A DNA stretch of 64,000 bases from Gluconacetobacter aggeris (GTDB lineage: Bacteria > Pseudomonadota > Alphaproteobacteria > Acetobacterales > Acetobacteraceae). The notes beneath the pieces were generated by a model, which had not been told where the DNA came from, ran no database searches, and worked only from the letters and a program-made list of their open reading frames with translations. Position 1 is the stretch's first letter. Each line of letters begins with the position of its first letter. The stretch is taken from assembly GCF_014174395.1 (NCBI RefSeq), contig NZ_JABEQD010000014.1, positions 1 through 64,000 of the forward strand. Direction: 5' to 3'. Both the position numbers and the translations under genes were made by a program. This document shows positions 8,754 to 54,052 of this stretch, one piece after another.

Positions 8754-9530
8754 TCATTTCCAGACCCATTTTCCGACCACGCGGCCGTTGATATGCACCT
8801 CGTCCAATGCGCGGGTGTAGGTCGGGTAGCCGGGATTGATGCTCATGATCTGGACCATGACCGGGTCGGTGGCGCCGTAGACGATTTCCAGCCGTTTCAG
8901 CACCAGGCCGAACCCGTCCCACAGCACATAGACGCCGGGTGGCGACGGGGTGCGGTGGCCCATATCGACCAGGACCCGTTCGCCGGCCTGGTAGTCGGGT
9001 TCCATGCTGTCGCCCGCGACGCGCAGGACCACCAGGGATTCCGGACTGTCGGTAAAGGCGCCGAGGAAGCGGCGGGGCAGGAACCAGTGATCGACCGGCT
9101 GGGGGCCGTCCTCGACCGCCACATGGCTGGGCACGGCACCCGGGCCGGCCTGCGGGGCCACATTATATTCGGGAATGCGGAACAGGCCCTCGGTCGGCGG
9201 GGGATCGTGCTCGATCGGTGCGGCCCCGAACGGGGCGCGGGGGGCGGCCAGGTGCGGCCGGCGGGACTGGTCCGTGCCGTTCAGCGCGCCGGGGGCCAGG
9301 GGTTCCCAGTTCGGGTCGGTATCGTCGCGGAACACGTTGGCGCTGACGCCGAAGCGCCGGGCCAGGGCCTCGCGCACGTCCTCGGGCAGTCGCTGGGGGG
9401 TGCCCTTGTGGATATATTGCTGGAGATAGGCGTGGTTGCGCCCCAGCGCGAGCGATTCCGCCTTCAGGTTGCTGCCTGCGTCGGCGATCAGCCTGAGCAG
9501 CGCGTAGCGGGAGGGGGTCAGGACCGACAT
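8754..9530 (-). CDS. CI/LexA-like phage repressor (S24 peptidase fold)
   Basis: Predicted lysogeny repressor of 258 residues. N-terminal DNA-binding region (about 1-65: LRLIADAGSNLKAESLALGR...) and a C-terminal S24/LexA-type domain (about 145-255) with catalytic Ser175 (VAGDSMEPDY) and Lys212 (LVLKRLE). This pair supports self-cleavage and induction by DNA damage. The ATG at 9530 is chosen because a near-perfect promoter (TTGGGA, 18 bp, TATAAT) ends six bases before it, implying a leaderless mRNA; a TTG at 9566 would lie inside that promoter. Confidence 0.85.
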   Translation of the reverse strand: MSVLTPSRYALLRLIADAGSNLKAESLALGRNHAYLQQYIHKGTPQRLPEDVREALARRFGVSANVFRDDTDPNWEPLAPGALNGTDQSRRPHLAAPRAPFGAAPIEHDPPPTEGLFRIPEYNVAPQAGPGAVPSHVAVEDGPQPVDHWFLPRRFLGAFTDSPESLVVLRVAGDSMEPDYQAGERVLVDMGHRTPSPPGVYVLWDGFGLVLKRLEIVYGATDPVMVQIMSINPGYPTYTRALDEVHINGRVVGKWVWK

Positions 9531-36808: not shown

Positions 36809-37330
36809 ATGGCGGCGGACGCGGGGGAGAAGCAGGCGCGGGGGTTGACCGTGCGGCAGGCGCGGTTCGTCGCGGAATATCTGGTCGACCTGAACACGAC
36901 GCGGGCGGCGATGCGGGCCGGGTATGGGGCGGGGTATGCGCGCCAGCATGCGTGGAAGCTGCTGCGGTCGGTGCGGGTGCGCGAGGCGATCCGCCAAGCG
37001 GAGCTGGCGCTGGAAGAACGGACGAAGTTCAGCCAGGACCGGGTGATTGCCGAGCTGACGCGGCTGGCCTTCTACGATGTGGGCACGATTGCGGCGCATC
37101 CGCTGAGGGGGCCGGAGGATATCGCGACGCTGCCGGTGGAGGTGCGTGCGGCGGTGACGGGGTGGTCGTGGGACAAGGCGGGGAATTTCACGGTGCGGCT
37201 GGCGGCGCGTACGCCGAGCCTGGACCTGCTGGCGCGGCATTTCGGGCTGCTGAAGGATGTGAAGCAGCATCTGGGCCGCGACGGCAAGCCCGCCGATCCG
37301 CCGGGCCTGTACACCGTCGTCGTGCGCTGA
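36809..37330 (+). CDS. Phage terminase small subunit
   Basis: A 173-residue DNA-recognition subunit of the packaging motor. The N-terminal Terminase_2 motif is clear: LTVRQARFVAEYLVDLNTTRAAMRAGYG (helix-turn-helix), followed by RVREAIRQAELALEERTKFSQDRVIAELTRLAFYD. Length is typical. It opens the late gene block. The 50-bp repeat begins 1 base after its stop. Confidence 0.88.
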   Translation: MAADAGEKQARGLTVRQARFVAEYLVDLNTTRAAMRAGYGAGYARQHAWKLLRSVRVREAIRQAELALEERTKFSQDRVIAELTRLAFYDVGTIAAHPLRGPEDIATLPVEVRAAVTGWSWDKAGNFTVRLAARTPSLDLLARHFGLLKDVKQHLGRDGKPADPPGLYTVVVR

Positions 37331-37331
37331 A

Positions 37332-37639: not shown

Positions 37640-37654
37640 GGGCGCCGGCTGCGC

Positions 37655-39127
37655 GTGCTGGGATATAATCGGGAGTCGGTGCCGACGATCCGGCGGTTTA
37701 TGGAATCGGATGCCTTTATCAGGGGGCTGATGGGGCCGTTCGGGTCCGGGAAAAGCTCGGGCTGCGTCTGGGAAATCGTGCTGCGGGGGTTGCGGCAGGC
37801 GCCGGGGGCGGATGGCGTGCGGCGCTCGCGCTGGGCGGTGATCCGCAATTCCTATCGCCAGCTTGAGGACACCACGATCCGCACCGTGCACCAATGGTTT
37901 CCGCCGGTGCGCTTCGGGCGGTGGAAGCCGAGCGAGCATTCCTATGTGATCGACCGGATGGTGGCGGAGGGGGACGAGAAGCCGGCCGAGATCGAGTTTC
38001 TGTTTCGGGCGCTGGACCGGCCGGACCAGGTGGGGAACCTGCTGTCGCTGGAGCTGACCGGGGCGTGGGTGAACGAGGCGCGCGAGGTGCCGTGGGCGAT
38101 CATCGAGGCGGTGCAGGGGCGTGTGGGGCGGTATCCGGCGCGGCGGGACGGTGGGGCGACATGGTCGGGCGTGATCATGGATACCAATCCGCCGGATGCG
38201 GAATCGGACTGGTACCGGTTCTTCGAGGAAAAGGATCATGGGGAGGCGGTGGCGGCGCTGGCGCAGGTGATTCCGGGCATGAATGTGGAACGCTTCGCGC
38301 GGATCTTTCGCCAGCCCGGCGGGCGGGCCGCCATGGCGGAGAATCTGGACAATCTGCCGCCGGGTTATTACCAGCGGCTGGCGGTCGGGAAAAGCGACGA
38401 GTGGAACAAGGTTTATATCGACGGGGATTACGGGTTCGTCATGGAAGGGCGGCCGGTCTTCGGCGAGTATAACGATGGGTTCCATTGCCGGGAATGCCGG
38501 ACGGTGCCGGCGCTGCCGGTTTATCGGGGCTGGGATTTCGGGCTGACGCCGGCCTGTGTCTTTACGCAGATGCTGCCGTCCGGGCAGTGGATCGTGGTGG
38601 ACGAGCTGGTGTCGGACGCCATGGGGATCGAGCGGTTTGCCGAGATCGTGGGGCGGCATTCGGCGCAGCATTTTCCCGATACGCGGTTTGTGGATATCGG
38701 CGATCCGGCGGGGATGCAGAAGGCGCAGACCGACGAGCGGACCTGTTTCGAGATCCTGCATGCGCGGGGGATTGCCATCACGCCGGGGATGCAGACGCTG
38801 GCGATCCGGCTGGAGAGTGTGCGCCGGCCGTTGCGCACGCTGCTGGACGGGGCGGCGCCGGGCTTTGTGCTGCATCCGCGCTGCACGACCGTGCGGCGGG
38901 CGCTGATGGGCGGCTACCAGTATCGGCGCGTGCAGGTGAGTGGCGAGCGCTATACCGACCGGCCGGAGAAGAACCGGTGGTCGCATGTGATGGACGCGCT
39001 GCAATACGTGGCCACGCGGCTGTTCGGCAGCGAATTGCGCGGGGCCGGCGGGGCGGAGGCGGATGACGATATCTGGCGCGCGCTGCCCGATGACGGGCGG
39101 ACGCGATCGCACATTACGGGATACTGA
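37655..39127 (+). CDS. Phage terminase large subunit
   Basis: The 490-residue ATPase/nuclease of the packaging motor. Walker A is GPFGSGKSS (residues 27-35); the Walker B/coupling region is LELTGAWVNEAREV; the nuclease domain starts VYRGWDFGLTP with its first acidic residue, and VDIGDPAG and HVMDALQY supply later ones. GTG start at 37655. All motor motifs look intact. Confidence 0.9.
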   Translation: MLGYNRESVPTIRRFMESDAFIRGLMGPFGSGKSSGCVWEIVLRGLRQAPGADGVRRSRWAVIRNSYRQLEDTTIRTVHQWFPPVRFGRWKPSEHSYVIDRMVAEGDEKPAEIEFLFRALDRPDQVGNLLSLELTGAWVNEAREVPWAIIEAVQGRVGRYPARRDGGATWSGVIMDTNPPDAESDWYRFFEEKDHGEAVAALAQVIPGMNVERFARIFRQPGGRAAMAENLDNLPPGYYQRLAVGKSDEWNKVYIDGDYGFVMEGRPVFGEYNDGFHCRECRTVPALPVYRGWDFGLTPACVFTQMLPSGQWIVVDELVSDAMGIERFAEIVGRHSAQHFPDTRFVDIGDPAGMQKAQTDERTCFEILHARGIAITPGMQTLAIRLESVRRPLRTLLDGAAPGFVLHPRCTTVRRALMGGYQYRRVQVSGERYTDRPEKNRWSHVMDALQYVATRLFGSELRGAGGAEADDDIWRALPDDGRTRSHITGY

Positions 39128-39128
39128 C

Positions 39129-39386: not shown

Positions 39387-39388
39387 GC

Positions 39389-41281
39389 ATGGATGCGGCG
39401 GAGCGGGATGGACCCGACATGGATCTGGCGGAGCGGCTGCGGCGCTGGATCGAGATCCCGAATATTGCGGAGGAGCTGGACGAGGCGACGCACGGGCGGG
39501 TGGCGGACCGGGTGGCGCGCGACTGGCGGGCCGACGAGGCCACGCGGGCCGAATGGAAGGAGAATTGCCGCCGCTGGCTGGATCTGGCCCAGCAGGTGGC
39601 CGAGCCCAAGACCTATCCCTGGCCGGGGGCGTCGAACGTCATCTATCCGCTGCTGACGGTGGCGGCGGTGCAGTTTGCGGCACGGGCCTATCCGGGCATC
39701 GTGCGTGACCGGGACGTGGTGCGGGGCACCGTGCTGGGGGTTGATTCCGGTGTGCCGGTGCCCGATCCGCTGCGGCCGGGGCAGGTCTTGACGGGGCCGG
39801 ATGGCGGGCCGTTATGGTTGGTGCCGCCGGGGGCGAAGCGGGCGCGGGCGACGGCGATCGGCCGGCATATGAGCTGGCAGTTGCTGGACGAGATGGCGGA
39901 GTGGGAGGAGCAGACCGACAAGCTGCTGCTGAAGCTGTCCATTATCGGCACCATGTTCCGCAAGACCTATTTCGACCCGGCCTTGCAGCGCAATGTCAGC
40001 GAGACGGTCGACCCGCTGCGGCTGTGCATCGATTACCATGCCAAATCCTTTGCCACCGCGCCGCGGATAACCGAGGAGATCGACCTCTATCCTTGGGAGA
40101 TCGAGGAGCGAATCCGGGCCGGGCTGTTCCTGGAACAGGATTATGGCGGCAATCATGAGGGCGGCGAGGACAGCGATGCGCCGGTGACGTTCCTGGAGCA
40201 GCATCGGCGGCTGGATCTGGATGGGGACGGGTATGCCGAGCCCTATATCGTGACCATCGCCCGCGATTCGGGCCGGCTTGCGCGCATTGCCGCCGGGTTC
40301 GACATGGATGGGGTGATGTTCGATGCGCAGGATCATCGCATCCGGCGGATCGAGGCGGTTTCGTATTACACCAAATTCTCCTTTATCCCGTCGCCGGATT
40401 CCGCGATCTACGATATCGGGTTCGGCACGTTGCTGCATCCGCTGAACGCGGCGGTGAATACCAGCCTGAACCAGATGTTCGATGCCGCGCATCTCGCCAA
40501 CGCCGGCGGTGGCTTTGTCGGCTCGGGCATGTCGCTGAACAGCGGGTCCGTGCGCTTTCAGGTCGGCGAATACAAGGTGGTGAATACGCCGGGTGCCACA
40601 TTGCGCGAGAATCTGGTGCCGTTGCAGTTTCCGGGGCCCAATCCGGTATTGTTTCAGTTGCTGGGCTTTCTGGTCGATGCCGGGCGGGAGATTGCGTCGG
40701 TCAAGGATATCCTCTCCGGCGCCATGCCGGGTGGGAATGTGTCCGGTGTGCTGGGGCTGGCGGTGATCCAGCAGGGGCTGAAAGTGTTCAGCGCCATCTT
40801 TAAGCGTATTCATCGCAGTCTGGGCGGGGAGTTTCGCAAGCTCTACCGCCTGAACCGGCTGTATCTGCCCGATGAATCCGGCTTTCGGGACGGCAGCGCG
40901 TTCTTTCGCGTCACCCGCGCCGATTACGAGCAGGGGGGCGGGGTGGAGCCGGTGTCGGACCCCGAGATCGTCACCGACATGCAGCAACTGGCACGCGCCA
41001 ATTTCCTGCTCGCCTTCAAGGACGATCCCTGGTGCGACGGGCATGAAATCCGCCGCCGTGCCTTCGAGGCTGCTGCCATCGGGATGGTGGACAAGGTGTT
41101 GCGGCCCGCGCCCACGCCCGATCCGGCGGCGATGGCGCGGGCGGCGGAGCTGGATCTGCGCGCGAAGCGTGAGGCGCGGGAGATGGAGATGCGGGCGGGG
41201 AGCGCGGCGGTGGAGCAGGTCTCGACGCTGGCGGAGGCGGCTTTGCGGTTGGCGCAGGCTCGGAAGGTGGAGCTTGGGTGA
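39389..41281 (+). CDS. Phage portal protein (P22 gp1-like)
   Basis: A 630-residue portal subunit that forms the dodecameric DNA gate at one capsid vertex. The long form and the sequence (NCRRWLDLAQQVAEPKTYPWPGASNVIYPLLTVAA, then a glycine-rich stem region and LNAAVNTSLNQMFDAAHLAN) fit the P22-like family. A long helical C-terminus (ELDLRAKREAREMEMRAG) is the expected barrel. ATG at 39389, directly after the small Cys-rich gene. Confidence 0.85.
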   Translation: MDAAERDGPDMDLAERLRRWIEIPNIAEELDEATHGRVADRVARDWRADEATRAEWKENCRRWLDLAQQVAEPKTYPWPGASNVIYPLLTVAAVQFAARAYPGIVRDRDVVRGTVLGVDSGVPVPDPLRPGQVLTGPDGGPLWLVPPGAKRARATAIGRHMSWQLLDEMAEWEEQTDKLLLKLSIIGTMFRKTYFDPALQRNVSETVDPLRLCIDYHAKSFATAPRITEEIDLYPWEIEERIRAGLFLEQDYGGNHEGGEDSDAPVTFLEQHRRLDLDGDGYAEPYIVTIARDSGRLARIAAGFDMDGVMFDAQDHRIRRIEAVSYYTKFSFIPSPDSAIYDIGFGTLLHPLNAAVNTSLNQMFDAAHLANAGGGFVGSGMSLNSGSVRFQVGEYKVVNTPGATLRENLVPLQFPGPNPVLFQLLGFLVDAGREIASVKDILSGAMPGGNVSGVLGLAVIQQGLKVFSAIFKRIHRSLGGEFRKLYRLNRLYLPDESGFRDGSAFFRVTRADYEQGGGVEPVSDPEIVTDMQQLARANFLLAFKDDPWCDGHEIRRRAFEAAAIGMVDKVLRPAPTPDPAAMARAAELDLRAKREAREMEMRAGSAAVEQVSTLAEAALRLAQARKVELG

Positions 41282-41286
41282 AGGAT

Positions 41287-41493
41287 GTTCTTTTTTTTGA
41301 AAAAAAGAACCAAAAAAACTTTTGATCTGTTTGGGTTCGGTGGGGTTGGTGGGTTGGGTGGAGATGCTTGTTTTATTCTTATGATTTAAAAATGGAAGAC
41401 TATGGATTTTTAGGAATACTCCCTCTCCATCCTGATGCTATCGAGAAACGTCGAAAAAGTCTTTTTGCTTCTTTTTCTTCAGAAAAAGAAGAA
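41287..41493. repeat. MITE-like inverted-repeat element A
   Basis: A 207-bp AT-rich element between portal and the next gene. Its left end (GTTCTTTTTTTTG..CAAAAGAAC-like, then CAAAAAAACTTTT) is nearly the reverse complement of its right end (CTTTTTGCTTCTTTTTC...). Each end is itself a hairpin. A 95-bp internal-plus-right block (41399-41493) recurs in element B. Confidence 0.7.
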
Positions 41494-41517
41494 GACCCAA
41501 AGAAAGGATCCCCCCCG

Positions 41518-41802
41518 ATGGAGCAGCGTCAGGCGATGTTGGAGGATCTGTCGGAGGAGGCGTTCCTGGCCTGGCGGCATCATCCGGTGACGCGGGCGGT
41601 GCGTCTGTTTCTGACGGATTATGGTGAAAGCATCGAGCAGCGGATGCTGGGCCAGTGGCGGGCGGGGACGATTACGCTGGCGCAGGAGCATGAGGCGCGG
41701 GGCCGGGCGGCGCTGGCGGCCGAGATGGCCGAGCTGCGATGGGCGGCGATGCGGGCGTTTTACGGCGATGTGCCGGAACGGAAGGAGACGGGTAATGCGT
41801 GA
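41518..41802 (+). CDS. Phage protein of unknown function (94 aa)
   Basis: A 94-residue helical protein with many Ala, Glu and Arg residues (MEQRQAMLEDLSEEAFLAWRHHPVTRAV...). ATG at 41518 with aaagga upstream; the frame extends further 5' only through the repeat element. The FLAWRHHPVTRAVRLFLTD segment resembles small proteins next to portal genes in related phages. Function unknown. Confidence 0.6.
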   Translation: MEQRQAMLEDLSEEAFLAWRHHPVTRAVRLFLTDYGESIEQRMLGQWRAGTITLAQEHEARGRAALAAEMAELRWAAMRAFYGDVPERKETGNA

Positions 41803-42208
41803 GGGACGCATTCTGAAATTCGACCAGCAGGAATTCGTGGTTTCCGATTGGGACGGGGTGAATCGGGCGGGGTATGTGCCGCTGGACGACAAGATCCTGG
41901 TGCTGGCGGATGTGCATGCCGAGATGACCAGCGGGGCGGTGCAGTTGCCGGCGGAATATGTGGAGCGCCAGACGCTGGCGGCCGAGCATGGGACGGTGAT
42001 TGCGGTGGGGCCGGCGGCGTTTCGCTGGAACGATGACGGCACGCGGCAGTGGGTGGGGACGATTCCGGCGGCGGGGGATCGGGTTTATTTCGAACGCTAT
42101 GCCGGGCAGTTGCTGAAGGGTGAGGATGGGCGGCTGTACCGGCTGATGTCGCAGCGCTGTATTGCCGCGATTGCGGCAGTGGCGAAGCAGGAGGGAGAGC
42201 TTGCATGA
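41795..42208 (+). CDS. Phage GroES-like co-chaperonin
   Basis: A 137-residue protein that fits the Cpn10 fold: PLDDKILVLADVHAEMTSGAVQLP (start and mobile-loop region of GroES), then GTVIAVGP, then AAGDRVYFERYAGQLLK and finally RLMSQRCIAAI. Order and spacing match GroES apart from a longer centre. Such proteins could cap host GroEL and help fold the capsid, as gp31 does in T4. Good ggaaggag ribosome-binding site; 8-bp overlap with the previous gene; ATGA overlap with the scaffold gene. Confidence 0.7.
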   Translation: MREGRILKFDQQEFVVSDWDGVNRAGYVPLDDKILVLADVHAEMTSGAVQLPAEYVERQTLAAEHGTVIAVGPAAFRWNDDGTRQWVGTIPAAGDRVYFERYAGQLLKGEDGRLYRLMSQRCIAAIAAVAKQEGELA

Positions 42209-43080
42209 CGGACGAGCGCGAAGAGGGCGTGGTGCTGCACGCGGAGGCCGAGGGCCACGAGCCGGTGGCCGATGCGCCGGAGGGTGGGGCGCCTGTCGAG
42301 GGGGATGCGGAGGTCGAGGCGCAGGCGCGGCGGATGGGCTGGGTGCCGCGTGACGATTTTCGGGGTGATGTGGAGAAATGGCGGCCGGCACGGGACTTTC
42401 TGGACCGGGGGATGAATTTGCTGCCGGTGTTGCAGCAGCAATATCGGGCGCTGGATGGGCGGTATGCGACCATGCAGGCGCAGTTGCGCGACAGCCAGAA
42501 GGCGCTGGCGGACCTGACGGAGCGCACGCGGCGGGCCGACGAGCGGGCCTATCAGCGTGCGGTGCGCGATATCGAGGGCCGGCGGCAGGCGGCGGTGGCC
42601 AGTGGCGACACGACGGCGTTTGCGGTGGCCGAGCGGGATTTGCAGGATCTGCGCGATACGGCGCCGCCGGCTCCGGCTCCGGTGGAGCGGGTGGAGAGCA
42701 TGCCGCCGGAGATTATGGATTTCGTGCAGGCGAATCCGTGGTTTTCGCGCGATGCGGAGGCGCGGCAGGATGCGATTGCGATCCAGTCGGCGGTGGATCG
42801 GCAGCATCCGGGGTTGAGCCTGGCGGAACGGCTGGAGATCACGCGGCGCAAGGTACGGCAATTGCATCCTGCCCTGTTCGAGAACAAACGCCGCGAGGCG
42901 CCGCCGCCGGTGAGTCCGTCGCGCGGTGAGGGCGGGCGCGGGGGGAATCCGCGCGGGTTCGAGGCGCTGCCGGCGGAGGCGCGGCGGGAATATGACCGTT
43001 ATGCCCGCGCGCTGGCGGGCAAGGGCAAGCCGCTGACGAAGGACGAATGGGCCGGATATTACTGGGAGAACGACGCATGA
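42205..43080 (+). CDS. Phage scaffold-like assembly protein
   Basis: A 291-residue acidic, coiled protein between portal and capsid genes. The N-terminus is very acidic (EGDAEVEAQARRMGWVPRDDF), the centre is a coiled coil (about 85-135: LQQQYRALDGRYATMQAQLRDSQK...), and the C-terminus is basic. This composition and position are typical of scaffolds. It would direct capsid assembly and then leave. The C-terminal basic part may bind the coat protein. Confidence 0.7.
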   Translation: MTDEREEGVVLHAEAEGHEPVADAPEGGAPVEGDAEVEAQARRMGWVPRDDFRGDVEKWRPARDFLDRGMNLLPVLQQQYRALDGRYATMQAQLRDSQKALADLTERTRRADERAYQRAVRDIEGRRQAAVASGDTTAFAVAERDLQDLRDTAPPAPAPVERVESMPPEIMDFVQANPWFSRDAEARQDAIAIQSAVDRQHPGLSLAERLEITRRKVRQLHPALFENKRREAPPPVSPSRGEGGRGGNPRGFEALPAEARREYDRYARALAGKGKPLTKDEWAGYYWENDA

Positions 43081-43571
43081 GCGACGAAACACGCGGGCGC
43101 GTGCCGCTGAACGAGGCGGCGCGGAGCCGTGCCGCCCAGAATGTTGCATCGGGTGCCGCGCCGGGGGTGGGGCCTGTCAGGCGCGTGGCCTCGCGCCGGC
43201 CGTTCGGGCTGCGGGAACAGAAGCTGGCCTATCCGGATCGGGAAGGGTACCACCGGCACTGGTTCAATGACGAGCCGGGGCGGATCGCGCGGGCCGGGGA
43301 TGCGGGATACAAGCAGGTTCTGGATGAATCCGGAAAACCCGTGAGCATGACTGTTGGGGTCGCGCGCGGCGGCGGGGCGCAGATTGCGTATCTGATGGAA
43401 ATCCCGGCCGAATGGTATCGGGAGGATATGGCGGCGCAGGAATCGGGACATCGGGAATTGATGGACCAGATCCGGGAAGGGCGTGTGCCGGGTGGCCCCA
43501 CGGGCGCGGACCGGCAGGCGCAGTATGTGCCGCGGGATGTGGGGATCTCGATCCGGGAAGAGCGACGCTAG
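43077..43571 (+). CDS. Phage head-region protein of unknown function (164 aa)
   Basis: A 164-residue soluble protein following the scaffold with ATGA overlap. The centre (PFGLREQKLAYPDREGYHRHWFNDEPGRIARA) is a recognisable motif of small head-region proteins in related phages; the end mentions no known fold. Basic N-terminus. Probably a minor capsid or assembly component. Confidence 0.6.
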   Translation: MSDETRGRVPLNEAARSRAAQNVASGAAPGVGPVRRVASRRPFGLREQKLAYPDREGYHRHWFNDEPGRIARAGDAGYKQVLDESGKPVSMTVGVARGGGAQIAYLMEIPAEWYREDMAAQESGHRELMDQIREGRVPGGPTGADRQAQYVPRDVGISIREERR

Positions 43572-44029
43572 GCGTCTGGTCGTAAATGCGCGCTGGTGGC
43601 GATCCGACGTGCGTTTCCTGCGCTCCGATGCTAACGCCTAGTGAGGCCGCTCCGCTTCGGTGCTCGGAAACACGCGACGGGCGCGGCCCGTAGCGGGCCG
43701 CTCTCGCTCACCAGCCCACATTTCCAGCCAGACTCCGGGAGTAGGGCGTTCTTTTTTGAAAAAAAGAACCAAAAAACTTTTTGGATTTTGGGTTCGGTTT
43801 CTCGTGGTGAGGCAGAGTCTGGAATGGGGTCCTGATTATTTTAATATATAAAACTATGGATTTTTAGGAATACTCCCTCTCCATCCATATGCTATCGAGA
43901 AACGACTGAAAGTCTTTTTGCTTCTTTTTCTGCAGAAAAAGAAGAGTTCAGGCAGCACAAACAGGCAAGGACGATTCGGCGGGTGCATGGCGTGCCTGCT
44001 GCCTTTTCACCCGTGCAGAGGTCTGCCCG
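43572..44029. other. Intergenic gap with repeats before the cement gene
   Basis: A 458-bp gap interrupts the tight late operon. It holds a perfect GC-rich hairpin (GCGGCCCG-tag-CGGGCCGC, 43683-43701) and MITE-like element B. No gene is supported. Confidence 0.6.
43748..43944. repeat. MITE-like inverted-repeat element B
   Basis: A 197-bp copy of the same family as element A, same orientation. The right 92 bp (43853-43944) matches 41399-41493 almost base for base; the left end is the same AT hairpin plus CAAAAAACTTTT. Confidence 0.7.
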
Positions 44030-44623
44030 ATGAATTCCAATGCTCCATTTGGCCTGCGGCCGATGGCTTATGCGTCCGGTGCGCCGTATGCCGGCGGCGT
44101 GCAGGTTTATTATGTGCCGGCGAGCAATCCCACGCCGTTGTTTCTGGGCGATCCGCTGGTGGTTCTGCCGGGGGCGGATGCCAATGGCGTGCCGGCGGTG
44201 GGGATTGCCACGGCCGGGGCGTCTGGCCTGGTGACCGGGGCGATGCAGGGCATTGCCAGCAATGCGGGCGAGCTGGTGGTGCCGCTGTTGCAGAACCAGG
44301 CGCCGTATCTACCGGCGGGGCAGGCGGCCTATGTCTATGTGGCCGACGATCCGAATCTGGTCTTTGCGGTGCAGGAGGATTCGGTGGGCGGTGCACTGCC
44401 GGCCGGTGCGGTGTCGGGCAATGTCAACCTGGTGGCGGGGGCGGGATCGACCGTGTCGGCGCAGTCCGGGTGGCAGATCCAGTCGAGCAGCGCGGGGACG
44501 CTGGCGACCGGGCAGATGCGCATTCTGCGGGCGTATCAGGCGATCGACAATGCGATCGGCGCCAACGCGAAATGGCTGTGCCGCATCAATCTTCATTCCA
44601 TCACCAGCACGCTTGGCGTCTGA
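44030..44623 (+). CDS. Phage capsid decoration (cement-like) protein
   Basis: A 197-residue protein directly upstream of the major capsid gene. It begins MNSNAPFGLRPMAYASGAPYAGGVQVYYVP and is glycine/alanine-rich and beta-like (LVTGAMQGIASNAGELVVPLLQ, ILRAYQAIDNAIGANAKWLCRIN), as expected of the structural cement family of short-tailed phages. It probably stabilises the expanded capsid. Confidence 0.65.
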   Translation: MNSNAPFGLRPMAYASGAPYAGGVQVYYVPASNPTPLFLGDPLVVLPGADANGVPAVGIATAGASGLVTGAMQGIASNAGELVVPLLQNQAPYLPAGQAAYVYVADDPNLVFAVQEDSVGGALPAGAVSGNVNLVAGAGSTVSAQSGWQIQSSSAGTLATGQMRILRAYQAIDNAIGANAKWLCRINLHSITSTLGV

Positions 44624-44635
44624 GGAGTCTGTTCA

Positions 44636-45544
44636 ATGGCCGTAATTACGACGGGCGCGCACCCCAAGGCTCTGTGGCCCGGTATCAAGGCGTGGTGGGG
44701 GCGCAGCTATGACGAACACCGCGTCGAATATCTGGATCTGTTCGACAAGCAGACGTCGGACAAGGCGTATGAGGAGGAGGTCGAGATTACCGGCTTCGGC
44801 CTGGCGCCGGTGAAGCCGCAGGGGCAGCAGATCTATTACGACACGGAAGCGCAGGGGGCGGTCAGCCGCTTTACGCATGTGGCGTATGCGCTGGGTTATA
44901 TCGTGACCTATGAGGAGCTGCGCGACAATCTGTATGAGGCGGTGTCGAAGCGCCGGGCCGCGCAGCTGGCGTTTTCGATGCGCCAGACCAAGGAAAACGT
45001 GCTGGCCGGCATCTACAACATGGCGTTCTCGGCCAGTGCGCTGGGGGGTGACGGGGCGCCGCTGATTTCGGCCGGTCATCCGACGCTGGCGGGCAGCCAG
45101 TCGAACCTGCTGGGGACGGCGGCGGATCTGTCGGAGGCGGCGATCGAGGATCTGACGGTGCAGATCATGCAGTGCCAGAACAACCGGGGGATGCGGATCT
45201 CGGCGCTGCCGCGCACGCTCAATGTGCCTTCGGCGCTGTGGTTCGAGGCCAACCGGGTGTGCAATTCGGTGCTGCAGAACGATACGGCGAACAATGCGAT
45301 CAACGTGCTGCGGGCGACCAATGCGTTCCCCGAAGGCATCAAGCTGAACCATTATTTCACCAGCCAGACGGCGTGGTTCATCCGGACCAATGTGCCGAAT
45401 TCGCTGACCTATTATGAGCGCGATCCGATCTCGTTCGATCAGGACAATGATTTCGACACGAGGAATGCCAAGGCGGCCTGTTATGAGCGCTATTCCGGAT
45501 ACTGGGCGGATTGGCGGGGGTTGTATGGGACGCCTGGGGTTTAA
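44636..45544 (+). CDS. Phage major capsid protein
   Basis: A 302-residue major head subunit, 12 bp after the cement gene. It starts MAVITTGAHPKALWPGIKAWWGRSYDEH and has a clear Mu/P2-unrelated capsid pattern, with YVTYEELRDNLYEAVSKRRAAQLAFSMRQ-like helical spine segments (partial) and SLTYYERDPISFDQDND near the end. Position, size and its own upstream gap (possible separate promoter) support the call. Confidence 0.82.
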   Translation: MAVITTGAHPKALWPGIKAWWGRSYDEHRVEYLDLFDKQTSDKAYEEEVEITGFGLAPVKPQGQQIYYDTEAQGAVSRFTHVAYALGYIVTYEELRDNLYEAVSKRRAAQLAFSMRQTKENVLAGIYNMAFSASALGGDGAPLISAGHPTLAGSQSNLLGTAADLSEAAIEDLTVQIMQCQNNRGMRISALPRTLNVPSALWFEANRVCNSVLQNDTANNAINVLRATNAFPEGIKLNHYFTSQTAWFIRTNVPNSLTYYERDPISFDQDNDFDTRNAKAACYERYSGYWADWRGLYGTPGV

Positions 45545-45550
45545 GGTTCT

Positions 45551-45670: not shown

Positions 45671-45696
45671 AGAACGCTGACAATGGAGCAATCCTC

Positions 45697-45846: not shown

Positions 45847-45900
45847 TGGCGTGGGCGCGGCCGGTGGGGCCGGCTGCGCCCTGATGCGGGGAGGGACGGC

Positions 45901-46856: not shown

Positions 46857-48743
46857 ATGATGACGGGGAGCGCGGGCTGGAACCCCGGGACATCCGACAT
46901 CATCAACGGCGCGCTGCGGCTGATCGGCGCGATCGCCAGCGGGGAGGTGCCGCCGGCGAACGAATATCAGGACGCGCTGTCCGCGTTGAACGGGTTGATC
47001 AAGGCGTGGCAGGTATCGGGCGTGCATGTCTGGGCGCAGGGCGAGGGGACGGTGTTTCTCCAGCCCGGGCAGGCCCGGTATGGGATCGGCGCCGGCAGCG
47101 CGGACAATGTGGCGCAGGGCTATGTGGCCACGGTTGCGGGAGCGCCGGTGGTGGCGGGGGCGGCGCAGGTGACGGTGGCCTCTGTTGCCGGCATCGCGGC
47201 CGGCTGCCGGATCGGCATTGTGCTGGATGGGGGCGGGCTGTTCTGGTGCTCGGTTCTGTCGGTGGTCGGTGGGACGGTCTATCTGGCGTCGGGGCTGGGC
47301 GGTCCGGTATCGGCGGGGGCGGTGGTGGTCGCTTATGGCGCGCCGTTCGTGCGGCCGCTGACGGTGATCGGGGCGCGGGCCGTCGATCTGGCGACGGGGG
47401 TGGAGACGCCGCTGATTCCGATGTCGCGGCTGGATTATGCGAACCTGTCGGGCAAGGGGACGCCGGGTGGGAGCCCGATGCAGTATTTTTACGATCCGCA
47501 GGTGGGGACGGGTCTTTTCAGCGTCTATCCGGCGCCTGCCGGCGGGCAGGTGGCGGTGACCCTGACCTGCCAGCTTCCGTTGCAGGATGTGGGTGGTGCG
47601 GCCGATCGTGCCGATGTGCCGCAGGAATGGATCTCGGCGCTGCGTTTCGCGCTGGCGGTGGAACTGGCGCCGGAATATGACTGCCCGGCCCAGCGTTTCG
47701 AGATGCTGAAGGCGATGGCGGCGGAGAAATTCGCCGTGGTGGCGCGGTGGGATCGGGAGCCGGCGGGGACGACCACCTGCCCGTTCAGCCAGCCGGTCTA
47801 TCAGATGATCGCGGGCGCGTTGCGGCTGTGCGGGGCGGTGGGGCCGCAGGACGTGCCGCGCCTGGGGCTGGTGGAGAATGCATTCGCGTCGCTGAATGCG
47901 ATGGTGCAGGCGTGGCAGGCTTCGGGCATTCATGTGTGGGCCGAAGAAGAGTGCACGCTGTTCCTGCAGCCGGGGCAGGTGCGGTACCTGATCGGGGCCG
48001 GGTCGGCGGATGCGGTTGCGGTGAGCAGCCAGTGTGTCGAGACGGTGCTGGCGGCGGCGGGTGCCGGGGTGCAGGTGAGGGTTGGGGCTGTGGCGGGGAT
48101 CGCTGCCGGCTGGCGGGTGGGGCTTTGGCTGGATGGCGGAGGTGTGTTCTGGACCGGTGTGGTGGCGGTTTCGGGCGGTGGACTGACGCTGGCCGCGCCA
48201 TTGCCGTCCGCGGCGTCGGCGGGGGCGCGGGTTGTGGCCTATCCTTGCCCGATGGTGCGGCCGTTGCGGGTGCCGGCGGCGCGGCGGCGGCAGTTCGCGG
48301 GCGACGGGCAGGCGGTGGAGGTCCCGCTGGTGCCGATGTCGCGGCTGGATTACGCCAATATTCCGAACAAGAGCGTGCCTGGCGTGGTGACGCAGTTCTT
48401 CTACGATCCGCAATTGGGGGCGGGGGTGCTGCATGTATGGCCCGCGCCCTCGGACAGTGGCTGTGCGGTGGCGTTTACCGCACAGCGGCCGCTGATGCCG
48501 TTTGCCGATCTGGGTTCGGTGCCGGATTTTCCCGATGAGTGGCTGGCGGCGATGCGCTGGAACCTCGCTGTGGAATTATGGCCGGAATATAACGGATCGG
48601 GGAAAGGGCCGGTCGATCCGGCGCAATATGCGATTCTGAAGCAGGAGGCCGTCAGCAAGTTGATGGTGGCGCAGGCCTGGGATCGGGAGCCGCAATCGGT
48701 GTTGTTTGGTGCCGGCGCGGGGCCGGCCGGGCGGGCGGGGTAG
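46857..48743 (+). CDS. Tandem-duplicated P22 gp4-like head-completion protein
   Basis: A 628-residue protein made of two homologous halves, residues about 13-310 and 314-615. Each half starts with the gp4-like segment (INGALRLIGAI...LNGLIKAWQVSGVHVW and IAGALRLCGAV...LNAMVQAWQASGIHVW), followed by LQPGQ-RY-IGAGSAD, a GDRV-type module, then PMSRLDYAN, YFYDPQ and ALRFALAVELAPEY/AMRWNLAVELWPEY. Single gp4 proteins (about 160-220 residues) seal the portal. The fusion of two expanded copies is unusual. Confidence 0.78.
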   Translation: MMTGSAGWNPGTSDIINGALRLIGAIASGEVPPANEYQDALSALNGLIKAWQVSGVHVWAQGEGTVFLQPGQARYGIGAGSADNVAQGYVATVAGAPVVAGAAQVTVASVAGIAAGCRIGIVLDGGGLFWCSVLSVVGGTVYLASGLGGPVSAGAVVVAYGAPFVRPLTVIGARAVDLATGVETPLIPMSRLDYANLSGKGTPGGSPMQYFYDPQVGTGLFSVYPAPAGGQVAVTLTCQLPLQDVGGAADRADVPQEWISALRFALAVELAPEYDCPAQRFEMLKAMAAEKFAVVARWDREPAGTTTCPFSQPVYQMIAGALRLCGAVGPQDVPRLGLVENAFASLNAMVQAWQASGIHVWAEEECTLFLQPGQVRYLIGAGSADAVAVSSQCVETVLAAAGAGVQVRVGAVAGIAAGWRVGLWLDGGGVFWTGVVAVSGGGLTLAAPLPSAASAGARVVAYPCPMVRPLRVPAARRRQFAGDGQAVEVPLVPMSRLDYANIPNKSVPGVVTQFFYDPQLGAGVLHVWPAPSDSGCAVAFTAQRPLMPFADLGSVPDFPDEWLAAMRWNLAVELWPEYNGSGKGPVDPAQYAILKQEAVSKLMVAQAWDREPQSVLFGAGAGPAGRAG

Positions 48744-48748: not shown

Positions 48749-51700
48749 ATGGCGGTTCAGCAGGTGGCCTTTGCCGCGCAATCGTACCAGGCGCATTCGG
48801 TGGCGCTGGATGCGCAGCGTTGCGTCAATTTCTATGCCGAATACGCGCCGAAGGATGCCAAGACGCCGGTGCCGGTGTGGGGTTGCCCGGGCATGGTGGC
48901 GTTCGCGCAGTGCGGGGCGGGGCCGGTGTGGGGCATGTGCCTGATGGGCGGGGCGCTGTATGTGGTCTCGGGGCAGGCGCTGTATCGGGTGGATGCGGAT
49001 GGGTCGAGCGTGGAGCTGGGCGCGACCTGGGTGACGGGGCCGGTATCGATGGATACCAATGGCGTCGATCTGGTGTGGGTGGATGGGGAATCCGGCTGGT
49101 CCTATTCGGTGGCCGGCGGGGTGCGGCAGATCACGGATGAGAATTTCTATCCGGCGGATTCTGTCGTTTATTTCGATACCTATTTCGTTTTCAACCGGGC
49201 CGGGACGCAGGAATTCTTTCTCTCGCCGCAGGAGGCGGTGACGCCGTTCGACGGGACGATGTTCGCCGCGAAGGAGGCGACGGCCGACCCTTTGCTGGCG
49301 GTCGTGAATTCGCATGAGCAGCTCTACCTGTTCGGCGCGGCGCGGACGGAGGTTTGGTACGATGCCGGGACTGCGGCGCCGTCCTTTCCGTTCCAGCGGT
49401 TCGATGGGGCGTTTATCCAGCGCGGCATTGCGGGGCCGCATGCGCATTGCCTGGAGGATAATACGCTCTTTTTCCTGGGCGATGACGGGATGTTCTATCG
49501 CCTGGCGGGGTACCAGCCGCAGCGCGTTTCGACCCATGCGATCGAGGGGGCGTGGCAGGCCTATGCGACGCGGGCGGATGCGCGCTGTTTCAGCTACACG
49601 CTGGAAGGGCATAAATTCGTCACCCTGCTGTTTCCCTCGGCGACCGCGACCTGGGTGTATGATGTGGCGACCGGGTTGTGGCACGAGCGGGAATCCTGGA
49701 CCGGCAGCGGGGCAGACAGTTCGATCGGTCGCTGGCGGGCCAATTGCGCGATCATGGCCCATGGCAGGGTGCTGGTGGGCGATTGGCTGAGCGGTGTGGT
49801 CGGGGCGTTGAATCCGCTGGTCTATACCGAGCTGGGGGCGACCATGCGCGGGTTGCTGGCCGCGCCGCCGGTGCAGGGGTTGCGCGGGCGCGTGTTCATG
49901 CGGCGCTTCGAGCTGGATGTGGAGACGGGGATCGGCCTGCCGGGCGTGCCTGGCGTGCGGAACGTGACCTATCAGCCGCAGGGGGTGGAACTGACGACGC
50001 CCACCGCGCTGGCGCGGGCGACGGCGCCGGAGGGCATGGCGGTGGGGCTGGCCAGTCTGCTGGTCAGCCTGTGGGTGGACCTGCCCGATGACGGCGCGCC
50101 GCGCGGGCTGGTGCTGGGCAGCGGGGATGCGACGGGCAGCCGGCCGGGCTTCTTTATCGGCGTGGCCAATGACGACACGCTGGCCGGGGCGCAGATCGTG
50201 GTGCGGGCGACCGACATGCAGGGCGGGGAGATCGTGCGTGCGTCTTACGATTTTGCCGGCTGGGGGGCGGGGTGGGTGAATCTGCTGCTGTCGCTGTCGC
50301 CGGGGGCGCGGCAGGTGCAGCTTTATGCCGGAGGGGTGGCGCTGGTGCCGGCCTCGGTCATGTGGTCGTCGGCGGCGCCGGTGGGCAATATGGCGGGGCA
50401 GGGGTGGCGCGTTGCGCCCTGGAACGGCGTTGTCGAGGGGGCGGGGCTGCTGGCGGCGCCGCAGTTTGGCGGCCATACGGCCGGGTCGACCGCCGTTTAT
50501 AACGGGTGGGCGAATATGTCGTGCATGCCGGACCGGTCGGGCAACATGATTTCGCTGGGCAGCGGGGCGGTGAATGCGGTCTCGCCTTCGGGCACGGTGG
50601 TGTGGACGCTGGAGCAGGCGAGTGTGCAGGCCGACATCCTGACCATGGCGCCGGGGCTGGACATGCTGAATGTCCGGCTGAATGCGGTCTCGGTTCTGCT
50701 GCTGGGCCAGTATCTGGTGGTGGGGGTGGATGACGGCGCGGTGTGGGAAGGCATTGCGCTGTATCAGGCCAATGGCCAGGCGGCGCCGGTCTTTCTAGGA
50801 TTTGTCTATAACGCCATTGGCGGGCCGGGGCCGATCTATGGCGCCAATCAATGTTTCCTGGCCGGGTCTCAGACGATCGACGATCCGATCCTGTCCTATC
50901 AGGTCGATTATCCGGCGGTGCCGCGTGTGGTGCTGGTCTTTCCCAGTATTGCGCAGATCATCAGCGGGGCGGCGCGGTCGGGTGGGCTCAACGGGCTGTA
51001 TCCGCAATTGGGCAGCATGGTGGCGTGGGCGGCGTGCCGGGTGCCGGTGATCAAATATGCCTATCCCGCGCAGTTGGGGACGCATCTGCTGATCCAGTCC
51101 GGCTATAACGGCAATGTCGGGTTCTTTCTGCCGGACGGGCAGGGCGGGACCAACCATTATCTGTATTTCAGCCGGGGCGACATGGCGGCCAATGCGGTGG
51201 CCGGGGGGAATGCCAATCCGGAATTGCAGGCGGTGATCGGGCCGGCCTGGCCGCATGGGGCGATGGTGCGGATTGCCATGGGGGCTGTCAGCTACGATGC
51301 GCTGGCGGCGCAGTTTGCCGGGAATAGCGCGACGTCGTCTACCGGTACATTGCCGATGTACACGATCGACAATGAAAACTGGATCGATGCTGCCGGCGTG
51401 GTGCAGATTCCGTTTGCGGATGAATATGCGTTCATTGCCGACGGGCAGCCGGGAGGGACGGATGTTTATGGCGGCCAGCCGGGGCTGACGCCGATCGGGG
51501 GGAGTGGCGACTGGCTGGTGTCGTTTCTGCTGGTGGGGCTGTCGGACAGTGCGGCCAACCGGGGCAATGCGCGCATGTGGGACACGGTGCGGGTGTTCCG
51601 GTATTCCGCCGGGCGGGCGACGCAGATCGGGGCGCCGGTTTCGGGCGAGGCTTATGCCGCCACCGACTGGGCGGGCTACACGATCGGGCCGTGGAGCGAT

Positions 51701-52369
51701 GGCAATGCCGTGGCCTATGTGAGCGGATCGGCGGTGACGATCTGCGGCAACATGAAGCAGACGGCGGTGGGGACATATCCGGTGCCGGCCGGCACGCAGT
51801 ATCAGACGCGTTTCGGCAGCCTGGCCTTTGCCACGGCGCGGATTGCCGATCTGTTCGTGGCGGCGCCGGGAGATTTCGTGGATCTGTCGGTGGCGGCGAA
51901 CCGGGCGTTGTTCCTGACCGATGCGGGTGGGGCGCGTTATCTGGCGTCTGACGGGTCTGCGCCGCTGGGGCTGGCGCCGCCGGTTTTCCTGACCGTGGCG
52001 GCGGGGGCGCCGGTGGCGGCCTTCGCCGATAATGGCGGGGCGGGTGGTGGCTTTGCGGTGACGGGGGGGATCGTGCCGGCAGGCTCGAACCCGGTGGGCA
52101 GTGCGTTTGTGGAATCGGCTGATGCCGTCGCCGACGATCCGCCCGGTGTGGACCCGCGGATCATGCTGGACTGGTCGGATGACGGGGCGCGGACCTGGAG
52201 CGCGTTGCGGCTTTGGCGGTCGATGGGGCGGCAGGGGGCGTATCGGACGCGGCTGCGCTGGCAGAAGCTGGGGCAGGCGCGGCAGCGGGTGCTGCGGTTG
52301 CAGGTGACGGACCCGGTGCGGCGCAATCTGCTCGGGTTCTATCTGGACACCGAAACGGGGATGGAGTGA
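48749..52369 (+). CDS. Giant P22 gp10-like hub protein with internal insertion
   Basis: A 1206-residue protein. Residues 1-400 (MAVQQVAFAAQSYQAHSVALDAQRCVN, then VYDVATGLWHERESWTGSG... and FMRRFELDVETGIGLPG) and residues 1134-1206 (PRIMLDWSDDGARTW...YRTRLRWQKLGQARQRVLRLQVTDPV) match the P22 gp10 tail-hub family, which is normally about 470 residues. The intervening ~730 residues are foreign to the family: a LamG/concanavalin-like start (VSLWVDLPDDG...GFFIGVAND) and Gly/Ala-rich beta sequence. gp10 binds gp4 and the tailspikes, so the insert may replace a receptor-binding protein. Confidence 0.78.
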   Translation: MAVQQVAFAAQSYQAHSVALDAQRCVNFYAEYAPKDAKTPVPVWGCPGMVAFAQCGAGPVWGMCLMGGALYVVSGQALYRVDADGSSVELGATWVTGPVSMDTNGVDLVWVDGESGWSYSVAGGVRQITDENFYPADSVVYFDTYFVFNRAGTQEFFLSPQEAVTPFDGTMFAAKEATADPLLAVVNSHEQLYLFGAARTEVWYDAGTAAPSFPFQRFDGAFIQRGIAGPHAHCLEDNTLFFLGDDGMFYRLAGYQPQRVSTHAIEGAWQAYATRADARCFSYTLEGHKFVTLLFPSATATWVYDVATGLWHERESWTGSGADSSIGRWRANCAIMAHGRVLVGDWLSGVVGALNPLVYTELGATMRGLLAAPPVQGLRGRVFMRRFELDVETGIGLPGVPGVRNVTYQPQGVELTTPTALARATAPEGMAVGLASLLVSLWVDLPDDGAPRGLVLGSGDATGSRPGFFIGVANDDTLAGAQIVVRATDMQGGEIVRASYDFAGWGAGWVNLLLSLSPGARQVQLYAGGVALVPASVMWSSAAPVGNMAGQGWRVAPWNGVVEGAGLLAAPQFGGHTAGSTAVYNGWANMSCMPDRSGNMISLGSGAVNAVSPSGTVVWTLEQASVQADILTMAPGLDMLNVRLNAVSVLLLGQYLVVGVDDGAVWEGIALYQANGQAAPVFLGFVYNAIGGPGPIYGANQCFLAGSQTIDDPILSYQVDYPAVPRVVLVFPSIAQIISGAARSGGLNGLYPQLGSMVAWAACRVPVIKYAYPAQLGTHLLIQSGYNGNVGFFLPDGQGGTNHYLYFSRGDMAANAVAGGNANPELQAVIGPAWPHGAMVRIAMGAVSYDALAAQFAGNSATSSTGTLPMYTIDNENWIDAAGVVQIPFADEYAFIADGQPGGTDVYGGQPGLTPIGGSGDWLVSFLLVGLSDSAANRGNARMWDTVRVFRYSAGRATQIGAPVSGEAYAATDWAGYTIGPWSDGNAVAYVSGSAVTICGNMKQTAVGTYPVPAGTQYQTRFGSLAFATARIADLFVAAPGDFVDLSVAANRALFLTDAGGARYLASDGSAPLGLAPPVFLTVAAGAPVAAFADNGGAGGGFAVTGGIVPAGSNPVGSAFVESADAVADDPPGVDPRIMLDWSDDGARTWSALRLWRSMGRQGAYRTRLRWQKLGQARQRVLRLQVTDPVRRNLLGFYLDTETGME

Positions 52370-52992
52370 TGCCGGCGGTACCGCGCCAGACCCTGCCGGT
52401 GGGGGACTGGCCGTTCGTCGACACCGCGACCGGGCGGCTGACGCTGTCGGCCTATCAGTTTCTCGCGCGGCTTCAGGCCGGGTCCAGCGGGTCGATCCGC
52501 AACCTGTCGGTGATTGCCGGGGCGCTGGGCGTGCCGGTGGCAAGTATTGGTGCCAGCGGGCCGGATTCGGTGATCCTGCCGGCGTCCTTTCCGCCGCCGG
52601 CACCCGTGCCGGCGGGGCGGGGGGAACGGTTGTCGGCGTTGCTGGCGGCCGTGCCGCGCCCGGTTGTGCCGGGTTCGCGAATGTTGCCCGTGGCGCCGGC
52701 GCGGCCGGGGGATGTGGTGGTGCTGCATCATGGCGCGCGGGTGATGGACGGGTTCGGCGGGCCGGAGGGGCGTGTCGCCGGGTGGGTGGGCGATGTCTTC
52801 CTGCAACGCGATGGCGGGCCGGCGGGGGCGGTGTGGGCCAAGCAGTCGGGCGCCGGGACGGTGGCGGGCTGGGCGGTGCTGGGGCAGGGGGCTGGCGCGG
52901 GGGGCGGCGTGCTGCCGCTGGTCAACGGGAATATCGCGCCGGTCGGCATGCTGTCCGATCCGGCGGGGCAGACAATCGGGGTGCCGATCTGA
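52369..52992 (+). CDS. Phage tail-region protein of unknown function (207 aa)
   Basis: A 207-residue protein overlapping the gp10-like stop by 1 base (TGATG). Residues 1-40 (MPAVPRQTLPVGDWPFVDTATG, then TLSAYQFLARLQAG) are a short conserved start found in tail-end proteins of related phages. The rest is Pro/Ala/Gly-rich and extended, with one hydrophobic beta patch (GDVVVLHHGARVMDGFGGPEG). Function unknown; probably virion-associated. Confidence 0.6.
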   Translation: MPAVPRQTLPVGDWPFVDTATGRLTLSAYQFLARLQAGSSGSIRNLSVIAGALGVPVASIGASGPDSVILPASFPPPAPVPAGRGERLSALLAAVPRPVVPGSRMLPVAPARPGDVVVLHHGARVMDGFGGPEGRVAGWVGDVFLQRDGGPAGAVWAKQSGAGTVAGWAVLGQGAGAGGGVLPLVNGNIAPVGMLSDPAGQTIGVPI

Positions 52993-53450
52993 TGGGCAAC
53001 AGCACGCTGATTACCGATTATCTCGGTTACGGCACCCTTGCCGCGCGGCCGGTGGCGCCGAACCTGCCGGCGGGGTGTCTCGGGGTCTATTACGCCACCG
53101 ATACCGGGCAGATCCAGGTGTGGAACGGGGCGTGGCAGGATTGGACGCCGTCCGCCCTTTCCTTCTCCGGCAGTCTGGTGGCGGCGGGAAGCGGGCAGGG
53201 CACGGCGGCTGCCGTGTCGTCGGAGGTCAATCTGTTCACCACTGTGGCGGCCGGCACCGGGGCGGTGCTGGTGGCGGGGCTGGCGGGAACCTGGCGCAAG
53301 GTGCTGAACCGGGGCGGTTCCGCGCTGCTGGTCTATCCGCCCGTGGGGGGCGTGATCGATGCGCTGGCGGCGGGAGTGCCGGTTGCGATCGTGCCCGGCG
53401 GGGGCGCCACGTTCTGGCAGAACAGTGCAACGCAATGGTATTCGGAATGA
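52992..53450 (+). CDS. Phage tail-region protein of unknown function (152 aa)
   Basis: A 152-residue beta-rich protein, TGATG-coupled to its upstream neighbour. The N-terminus (LPAGCLGVYYATDTGQIQVWNGAWQDW) is a short WNG-type motif seen in phage fibre or decoration proteins; the C-terminus resembles a small beta-barrel (AAAVSSEVNLFTTVAAGTGAVLV, ending ATFWQNSATQWYSE). Likely a virion or fibre-like component. Confidence 0.6.
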   Translation: MGNSTLITDYLGYGTLAARPVAPNLPAGCLGVYYATDTGQIQVWNGAWQDWTPSALSFSGSLVAAGSGQGTAAAVSSEVNLFTTVAAGTGAVLVAGLAGTWRKVLNRGGSALLVYPPVGGVIDALAAGVPVAIVPGGGATFWQNSATQWYSE

Positions 53451-54052
53451 AGAGAATCCTGTTGATGCTGGCCGGCATGCTGGTGCTGGCGCCGTATGCT
53501 GCCGGCCCGGCGCGGGCGCAGATGGTGGGGCCGGTCGGGCATGGTGAAATTCCGTCCTGCCCCGACAGCGGCGGCAGCCATCTGAATTATGTGCCCGCGA
53601 GCGGAAGTTTTGCCTGCGGCACCACGGGTGTGCCCTGGGTGGGGGCGATGGTGAGCCTGTCGGCGGATGCGGCGATGGCGGCGACCGGCGGCAGCTTCGT
53701 GCAGATGAAGGTATGGAACAGCGAAATTCTCGATACGTCGTCTTTCTGGTCGGCGGGTACGCCGGGGCAGTTCACGATTCCGGCCGGGGTGAGCCGGGTG
53801 CGGGTTGCGCTGTCGATCGCGCAGTCGGGTATCGGGTCCAACCAGTTCCTGGTGTATCGGAACGGGGTGCGGGTGGCCGGATCGTTCCGGATCTCGGTGC
53901 CGGCGGGCTACAATAATGACGGGGTGACGGGCATGTCGGGGGTCATTCCTGTTTCTGCGGGCGATGCGATCAGTGTTTCCTATGCCTCGGCGGCGGCTTT
54001 TACGCTTTCTGCCGATGTCAGTACCTGGTTCCAGATCGAGGCCGTTCAATAG
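53447..54052 (+). CDS. Exported C1q-like phage protein with signal peptide
   Basis: A 201-residue protein, last gene of the late block, with 4-bp overlap. A clear signal peptide (about 1-25: MKRILLMLAGMLVLAPYAAGPARA) is followed by a C1q/TNF-like beta-sandwich (about 75-201: VKVWNSEILDTSSFW..., FTIPAGVSRVRVALSIAQSG, YNNDGVTGMSGVIPV, ending TWFQIEAVQ). Phage structural proteins normally lack signal peptides, so this one may be exported by the lysogen. Either host-surface modification or an acquired cell gene is possible. Confidence 0.65.
   Translation: MKRILLMLAGMLVLAPYAAGPARAQMVGPVGHGEIPSCPDSGGSHLNYVPASGSFACGTTGVPWVGAMVSLSADAAMAATGGSFVQMKVWNSEILDTSSFWSAGTPGQFTIPAGVSRVRVALSIAQSGIGSNQFLVYRNGVRVAGSFRISVPAGYNNDGVTGMSGVIPVSAGDAISVSYASAAAFTLSADVSTWFQIEAVQ

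Follow-up and report, generated by a model that had tools for sequence, protein, structure and literature searches.

A phage-type GroES co-chaperonin in the head operon of a vertically inherited, integrase-less phage-derived cluster of Gluconacetobacter

Introduction

Phage T4 encodes a co-chaperonin of its own, gp31, which replaces GroES for folding of the capsid protein; a larger chamber under gp31 has been proposed for the folding of gp23, and other features may matter (PMC3012670). Phage-encoded GroES is also established outside the T4 group. It is one of 13 core genes of the HTVC023P-type pelagiphages, as determined across 82 genomes (PMC9599517), and it is labelled in CRP-901-type genomes (PMC10149686). 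In a different setting, phage structural genes persist in bacterial chromosomes as gene transfer agents (GTAs), whose attributes are an endogenised genome that is often spread over several loci, vertical inheritance, loss of phage replication, and the packaging and delivery of host DNA (PMC9662315).

Here we analyse a 64,000-nucleotide stretch of Gluconacetobacter aggeris DNA (hereafter the window; positions 1 to 64,000 of the forward strand of contig NZ_JABEQD010000014.1). The original prediction, made from the sequence of this DNA, read the open reading frame at 41795-42208 as a phage-encoded GroES-like co-chaperonin located between the portal and scaffold genes of a P22-like head operon, and supposed that annotation pipelines would leave such a gene hypothetical.

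Results

The co-chaperonin gene (41795..42208, + strand, 137 aa) begins with an ATG at 41795 and ends with a TGA whose last base is 42208. A Shine-Dalgarno sequence, AAGGAG (41782..41787, +), lies 7 nt 5' of the ATG, and the frame overlaps both of its neighbours, with the upstream ORF ending at 41802 and the downstream ORF starting at 42205; these overlaps and the good Shine-Dalgarno are as expected for a gene of the head operon. The four predicted GroES landmarks are present and in order: PLDDKILV (residues 29-36), GTVIAVG (66-72), GDRVYFERYAG (94-104) and IAAI (123-126). Pfam Cpn10 (PF00166) matched residues 28-126 with 41.5 bits (E = 1.3e-10; cut-off 21.1 bits), PHROG 3188, 'co-chaperonin GroES', matched with E = 1.9e-8, and mycobacterial Cpn10 structures matched among PDB sequences with E = 1.6e-9. 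NCBIfam GroES models also matched, but under their curated cut-offs. With a profile made from cellular GroES only, the protein scored 26.4 bits against a best of 7.2 in 2000 shuffles, and it was the sole real match to that profile among the 545 stop-to-stop frames of the window. A chance motif match was ruled out by the shuffle test and the frame scan. Neither a head-fibre family, the competing assignment named in the original prediction, nor any other non-Cpn10 family matched the protein in Pfam, PHROGs, NCBIfam or PDB sequences.

The predicted fold led to the same family. Single-chain AlphaFold2 prediction from a 43-sequence alignment of the window protein and its viral relatives gave a mean pLDDT of 87, with values of 95-96 over most of residues 21-40 and 61-120 and lower values (82-87) over the loop region, residues 41-60. 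The best PDB folds for this model were all Cpn10/GroES, with a Z of 10.2 to GroEL-bound GroES (8wuc_a), and T4 gp31 was among the matches (Z of 7.5, and 8.3 in its GroEL complex). The closest non-GroES folds were the GroES-like domains of oxidoreductases (Z of 5.3 or less); the GroES-like domain of alcohol dehydrogenases was rejected as an assignment, being a weaker fold match than Cpn10 (Z of 8-10). A recent copy of host GroES was also ruled out, by an identity of 32% to that protein and by a differing loop length. Thus, the product of 41795-42208 is a true Cpn10/GroES-family protein, as had been predicted.

The protein differs from cellular GroES at its N-terminus and in its mobile loop. An N-terminal extension (residues 1-26; 41795..41872, +) precedes the GroES core; it is kept in close relatives and absent from host GroES. 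The mobile-loop region, G47-G66 (41933..41992, +), spans 20 residues. From G47 to the next strand glycine, G66, the length is 20 residues in 63 of 65 full-length phage relatives and 21 in the other two, in contrast to 16 residues in 20 of 20 cellular GroES proteins, including both host copies and that of E. coli. A 4-residue extension in the mobile-loop arm, as read from the alignments, is thus common to the phage GroES family, and the added length may lift the cap higher or adjust its affinity. The segment corresponding to the GroES roof hairpin is kept, with 23 residues versus 19 in cellular GroES. T4 gp31 is not known to have this hairpin.

The hydrophobic triad expected in a GroES mobile loop is only partly preserved. 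At V49-Q50-L51 (41939..41947, +), which aligns with I-V-L of E. coli GroES, the two outer positions are hydrophobic, the middle one is polar, and A48 stands where glycine is expected. The middle position is also R, Q, E or H in phage relatives, and the outer positions are hydrophobic in most of about 65 of them. Because several relatives have a polar middle residue, the outer two hydrophobics appear to carry the GroEL contact. The polar triad residue, together with the conserved extension absent from GroES and the location of the gene between portal and scaffold, could instead mean that a Cpn10 fold has been co-opted for head structure or assembly, for instance as an accessory of the portal or scaffold, and has lost GroEL docking. 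A loop that no longer bound GroEL should drift; this one has been kept at uniform length with its outer positions hydrophobic in most relatives, and the model matches GroEL-bound GroES chains with a Z of about 10. We therefore consider such repurposing quite unlikely and favour a protein that still functions as a GroEL lid.

The gene is embedded in an operon of head genes, all on the + strand, and could be co-transcribed with them. Upstream lie the terminase small subunit (36809..37330; Pfam Terminase_2, 1.6e-24), the terminase large subunit (37655..39127; PHROG 2, E = 2.1e-23), the portal protein, whose start is uncertain (39389..41281; PHROG 1216, 6.5e-8; SU10_portal, 2.7e-4), and, in the gap between portal and GroES, a small ORF (41518..41802) of a kind found there in most relatives too. 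Downstream, a putative scaffold protein of 291 aa (42205..43080), assigned by position and charge and without a family match, is followed by two conserved head-module proteins that occupy the same slots in phage relatives (about 165 aa, 43077..43571; about 190 aa, 44030..44623, PHROG 37556). Next come the major capsid protein (MCP; 44636..45544; 302 aa, 33.6 kDa; Pfam Phage_capsid_4, 1.5e-8), a head-tail adaptor-like protein (46857..48743; SU10_adaptor, 2.4e-15; PHROG 637 Ad3, 2.7e-6), the head closure protein Hc3, which is P22 gp10-like (48749..52369; 1206 aa; PHROG 578, 2.8e-105), and the last three genes of the structural module (52369..54052), co-conserved in the genus. The co-chaperonin gene thus lies where it had been placed, between the portal gene and the putative scaffold gene, and it is conserved as a head gene.

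The description of this operon as P22-like applies in part. The order portal, scaffold, coat is that of P22, with the scaffold placed by position, and the connectors are of P22/SU10 type (PHROG 578, 637 and 1216). However, the MCP matched Phage_capsid_4 and Mu gpT-like or other major head protein families and no P22 coat family, so 'P22-like' fits the connectors and the general order only. No sequence relative of the MCP was found in the PDB. As negative controls we inspected the head operons of P22 and of SU10, the latter being the namesake of the portal and adaptor families matched in the window. Both run portal, (small ORF), scaffold, capsid, and neither has a Cpn10.

Gaps of the head operon at 41287-41491, 43748-43944 and 45551-45670 contain AT-rich perfect hairpins, paired about 80 nt apart. 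Paired copies occur at dozens of sites in the window genome, and also in G. diazotrophicus and in a further genome of the genus (G011). They resemble a dispersed element of the REP/MITE type. A dispersed host hairpin repeat has entered the head operon.

Among phages, the co-chaperonin accompanied this MCP with great regularity. A tblastn search with the MCP returned 18 annotated phage records. Thirteen of these, from Pelagibacter, Roseobacter, Caulobacter, Alcaligenes and Planktothrix hosts and from uncultured phages, with MCP identities of 32-58%, were examined for gene content; the remaining five are similar to them in record length and MCP match. In all 13, the same slot upstream of the MCP is occupied by a gene annotated as GroES, co-chaperonin or chaperonin 10. 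Together with the published core-gene status of GroES in HTVC023P-type phages (PMC9599517), this shows that the original prediction was mistaken in treating the gene as unfamiliar and likely to be left hypothetical. In an IMG/VR sample of the 80 best MCP relatives (61-99% identity), each of the 46 contigs with at least 3.6 kb of sequence upstream of the MCP carried one same-strand Cpn10 and no second copy; these comprised 39 distinct proteins, ending 1.8-4.1 kb before the MCP. In contigs that lacked a Cpn10, the sequence ahead of the MCP was shorter than 2.4 kb. This pairing extended to another Acetobacteraceae genus, in which an MCP of 33% identity has a Cpn10 2.2 kb upstream (E = 2.2e-12); in a second genus (MCP 29% identical) the Cpn10 match was weak (E = 2.8e-4). 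Wherever the available sequence reaches far enough, therefore, this MCP family is accompanied by the co-chaperonin.

Such strict linkage suggests, short of proof, that the MCP is the client, and is also compatible with the portal, scaffold or another head protein in that role, any of which may be served by the lid. It also bears on whether there is a specific head client at all. The protein could be a general booster or replacement of GroES, serving bulk folding during infection or under heat or acid stress; its core fold is GroES-like, and in E. coli both T4 gp31 and RB49 CocO can stand in for GroES in protein folding (PMC3012670). Such a role would not account for a position that is constant within the head operon, or for a strict association with one MCP family rather than with phages in general; nor would it explain why a cluster that has ceased to look infectious retains the gene in a host with two GroES genes of its own. 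A general folding aid is accordingly improbable, and a lid dedicated to a head protein remains the reading that we prefer.

Within the genus, the co-chaperonin (86-100% identical) and the MCP (91-100%) were found in all 13 good Gluconacetobacter genomes, with the same gene order in each. About 12 of the 13 are independent, because G004 and G012 have identical groEL over the compared stretch; these look like two assemblies of one strain. The two genes were absent only from one fragmented assembly (G013). That assembly is without capsid, co-chaperonin and repressor, but a right-module gene, the one of 171 aa, is still there (78% identity); either part of the element may have been lost from G013 or the assembly may have missed it.

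Within-genus dN/dS was about 0.04 for the MCP (0.03-0.08 in most pairs, 0.01-0.08 overall) and about 0.12 for the co-chaperonin (0.10-0.14 in most pairs, 0 to 0.24 overall). Values for portal and terminase were approximately 0.07-0.18 in most pairs, with a few deeper pairs higher (up to 0.39 for the portal), and tail-side genes were looser. The head genes, including GroES and MCP, are under purifying selection. It is very improbable that the co-chaperonin is a functionless remnant of a prophage in decay: the lack of an integrase nearby and the shortening of some tail genes in G005 and G008 would fit that view, but the gene itself is intact in 13 of 13 good genomes, with a dN/dS of about 0.12 across between-species dS of 0.2-0.6. 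The shortened frames are those of the orthologues of 48749-52369 in G005 and G008 (785 or 664 aa instead of 1206) and of 46857-48743 in G008 and G002 (459 or 324 aa instead of 628), and they reflect either assembly errors or loosened tail-side constraint.

The structural module does not appear to be the whole of the element. The idea that it marks the element by itself was dropped, since its contig also carries a left (repressor) and a right (collar) module, at distances of 24 kb and 22 kb. In the window genome three modules are collinear: a left module (8462-12753), the structural module (36809-54052) and a right, tail-collar module at 76.1-79.4 kb of the contig (12135-15408 of L238, contig C14). 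The left module includes an S24-type repressor (8754..9530, - strand; Pfam Peptidase_S24, 1.9e-10), present in all 13 good genomes, and an 840-aa protein (10231..12753, +) that is also found in an integrase-bearing prophage copy. No Pfam family supported reading the 840-aa gene as a primase or the 171-aa gene as a lysozyme, and both labels were dropped. The 24 kb and 22 kb that part the modules consist mostly of host-type genes (TonB receptor, M20 peptidase, cupin, nitroreductase and methyltransferase). The three collinear modules (repressor, structural and tail-collar) appear to be one phage-derived element that has been split; in G. diazotrophicus and G011 their counterparts lie close to one another. 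In G011 and G004, a gene of about 1000 aa that was judged GGDEF/EAL-like by eye separates the repressor from the terminase small subunit; in G011 it occupies the place held in other species by the 840-aa gene.

These elements might be ordinary prophages, integrated independently in each species. Flanks beside the structural module vary between clades, and G. diazotrophicus NC_011365 carries an extra, divergent copy (G004b; G004:C1 around 2722902-2726366, L068-L070; absent from G012) that belongs to a viral contig or prophage of about 54 kb; an integrase lies about 25 kb from this copy. Against this, G004b aside, no Phage_integrase was found within 50 kb of any of the 13 copies. Third-position distances of head genes correlated with those of host groEL (Mantel r = 0.90, p = 0.0001), and head-gene distances also with groEL2 (r = 0.63, p = 0.0003); the head-gene and host trees agree in their main groups, and head-gene dS falls in the range seen for a flanking host gene. 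In eight genomes, drawn from both clades, the element has the same gene to its left, a lipoprotein-like gene of 54 aa next to the S24 repressor, which fits one ancestral site. Independent integration is therefore unlikely. The Gluconacetobacter element is not an ordinary prophage: it is a vertically inherited, integrase-less phage-derived cluster, and its tracking of the host, the splitting of its modules and the entry of a host repeat indicate long residence and retention by selection.

Discussion

We conclude, with a probability of roughly 0.8, that 41795-42208 encodes a dedicated phage-type GroES that acts as a heptameric lid on host GroEL for a head protein, probably the MCP. By analogy with GroES and gp31, seven copies of the co-chaperonin would form the lid, which would dock on host GroEL through the mobile loop; the closed chamber would then fold a head protein, most probably the MCP encoded downstream in the same operon. 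The host genome has two GroES/GroEL pairs of its own. A capsid protein too large for GroES, the rationale offered in the original prediction, does not explain a special lid here: at 302 aa and 33.6 kDa the MCP fits an ordinary GroES cage, which rules out size alone as the reason. The co-chaperonin is already known and annotated in related phages, and the unusual part is its retention in a host-inherited cluster.

Could the cluster be a GTA? It is endogenised over several loci, with modules 24 and 22 kb apart and, G004b aside, no integrase within 50 kb, and it is vertically inherited and co-diversifying with the host (Mantel r = 0.90; a common left neighbour in both clades). On the side of phage replication there is no nearby integrase, yet every one of the 13 good genomes has the repressor and several have the 840-aa protein. 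We tentatively suggest, at somewhat below even odds, that the cluster is a functional GTA or similar domesticated particle of Gluconacetobacter, derived from a short-tailed phage with an HTVC023P/ct2G2228-type capsid unrelated to that of RcGTA, and carrying its own GroES as its shell cannot fold with the host lids. In the literature searched we found no report of a GTA of this type from Gluconacetobacter or other Acetobacteraceae.

The strict pairing of capsid and GroES offers a clean natural system in which to ask what a phage lid does beyond host GroES. The MCP in this system is small, so the usual size argument fails, and the common 4-residue loop extension is a concrete feature that can be tested. 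Retention of this pair in a vertically inherited cluster without an integrase suggests host-selected production of particles, possibly for gene transfer, in acetic acid bacteria, in a genus that includes the sugarcane nitrogen fixer G. diazotrophicus.

Among known systems, the RcGTA-like GTAs of alphaproteobacteria (PMC9662315) resemble the cluster in that phage structural genes have been endogenised and are host-inherited over several loci. The cluster differs from them in its P22/SU10-like connectors and its different capsid family and in keeping a repressor and a co-chaperonin of its own. T4 gp31 and RB49 CocO share with the window protein a phage-encoded GroES-fold lid tied to head assembly (Z of 7.5-8.3). 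Identity to gp31 is only 8-11%; the window protein keeps the roof-hairpin segment, 4 residues longer than in cellular GroES, where gp31 differs, and a larger cage is the reason proposed for the gp31 client gp23, in contrast to an MCP of only 33.6 kDa here. The host cellular GroES proteins (G000:C3:65686 and 421392) have the Cpn10 family and fold in common with the window protein, to which the copy at C3:65686 is 32% identical, but their loop is 4 residues shorter and they have no N-terminal extension.

There is also a close likeness to a group of phages made up of the HTVC023P-type pelagiphages, the Roseobacter phages CRP-901/902, Caulobacter phage RW, Alcaligenes phage vB_Af_QDWS535, Planktothrix phage Pag-Yong1 and the podovirus ct2G2228, which have the same Cpn10 family with the longer loop and a homologous MCP. 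They share with the window the arrangement portal, small ORF, GroES, about 290 aa, about 165 aa, about 190 aa, MCP; the window thus contains a head module of the HTVC023P/ct2G2228 type, with a homologous MCP, GroES a few genes upstream and the portal further upstream. Its co-chaperonin differs from those of the HTVC023P/ct2G2228-type phages in the Q of the loop triad and is only about 35% identical to them. Those are free phages, whereas the module described here belongs to a genus-wide, vertically inherited element without an integrase.
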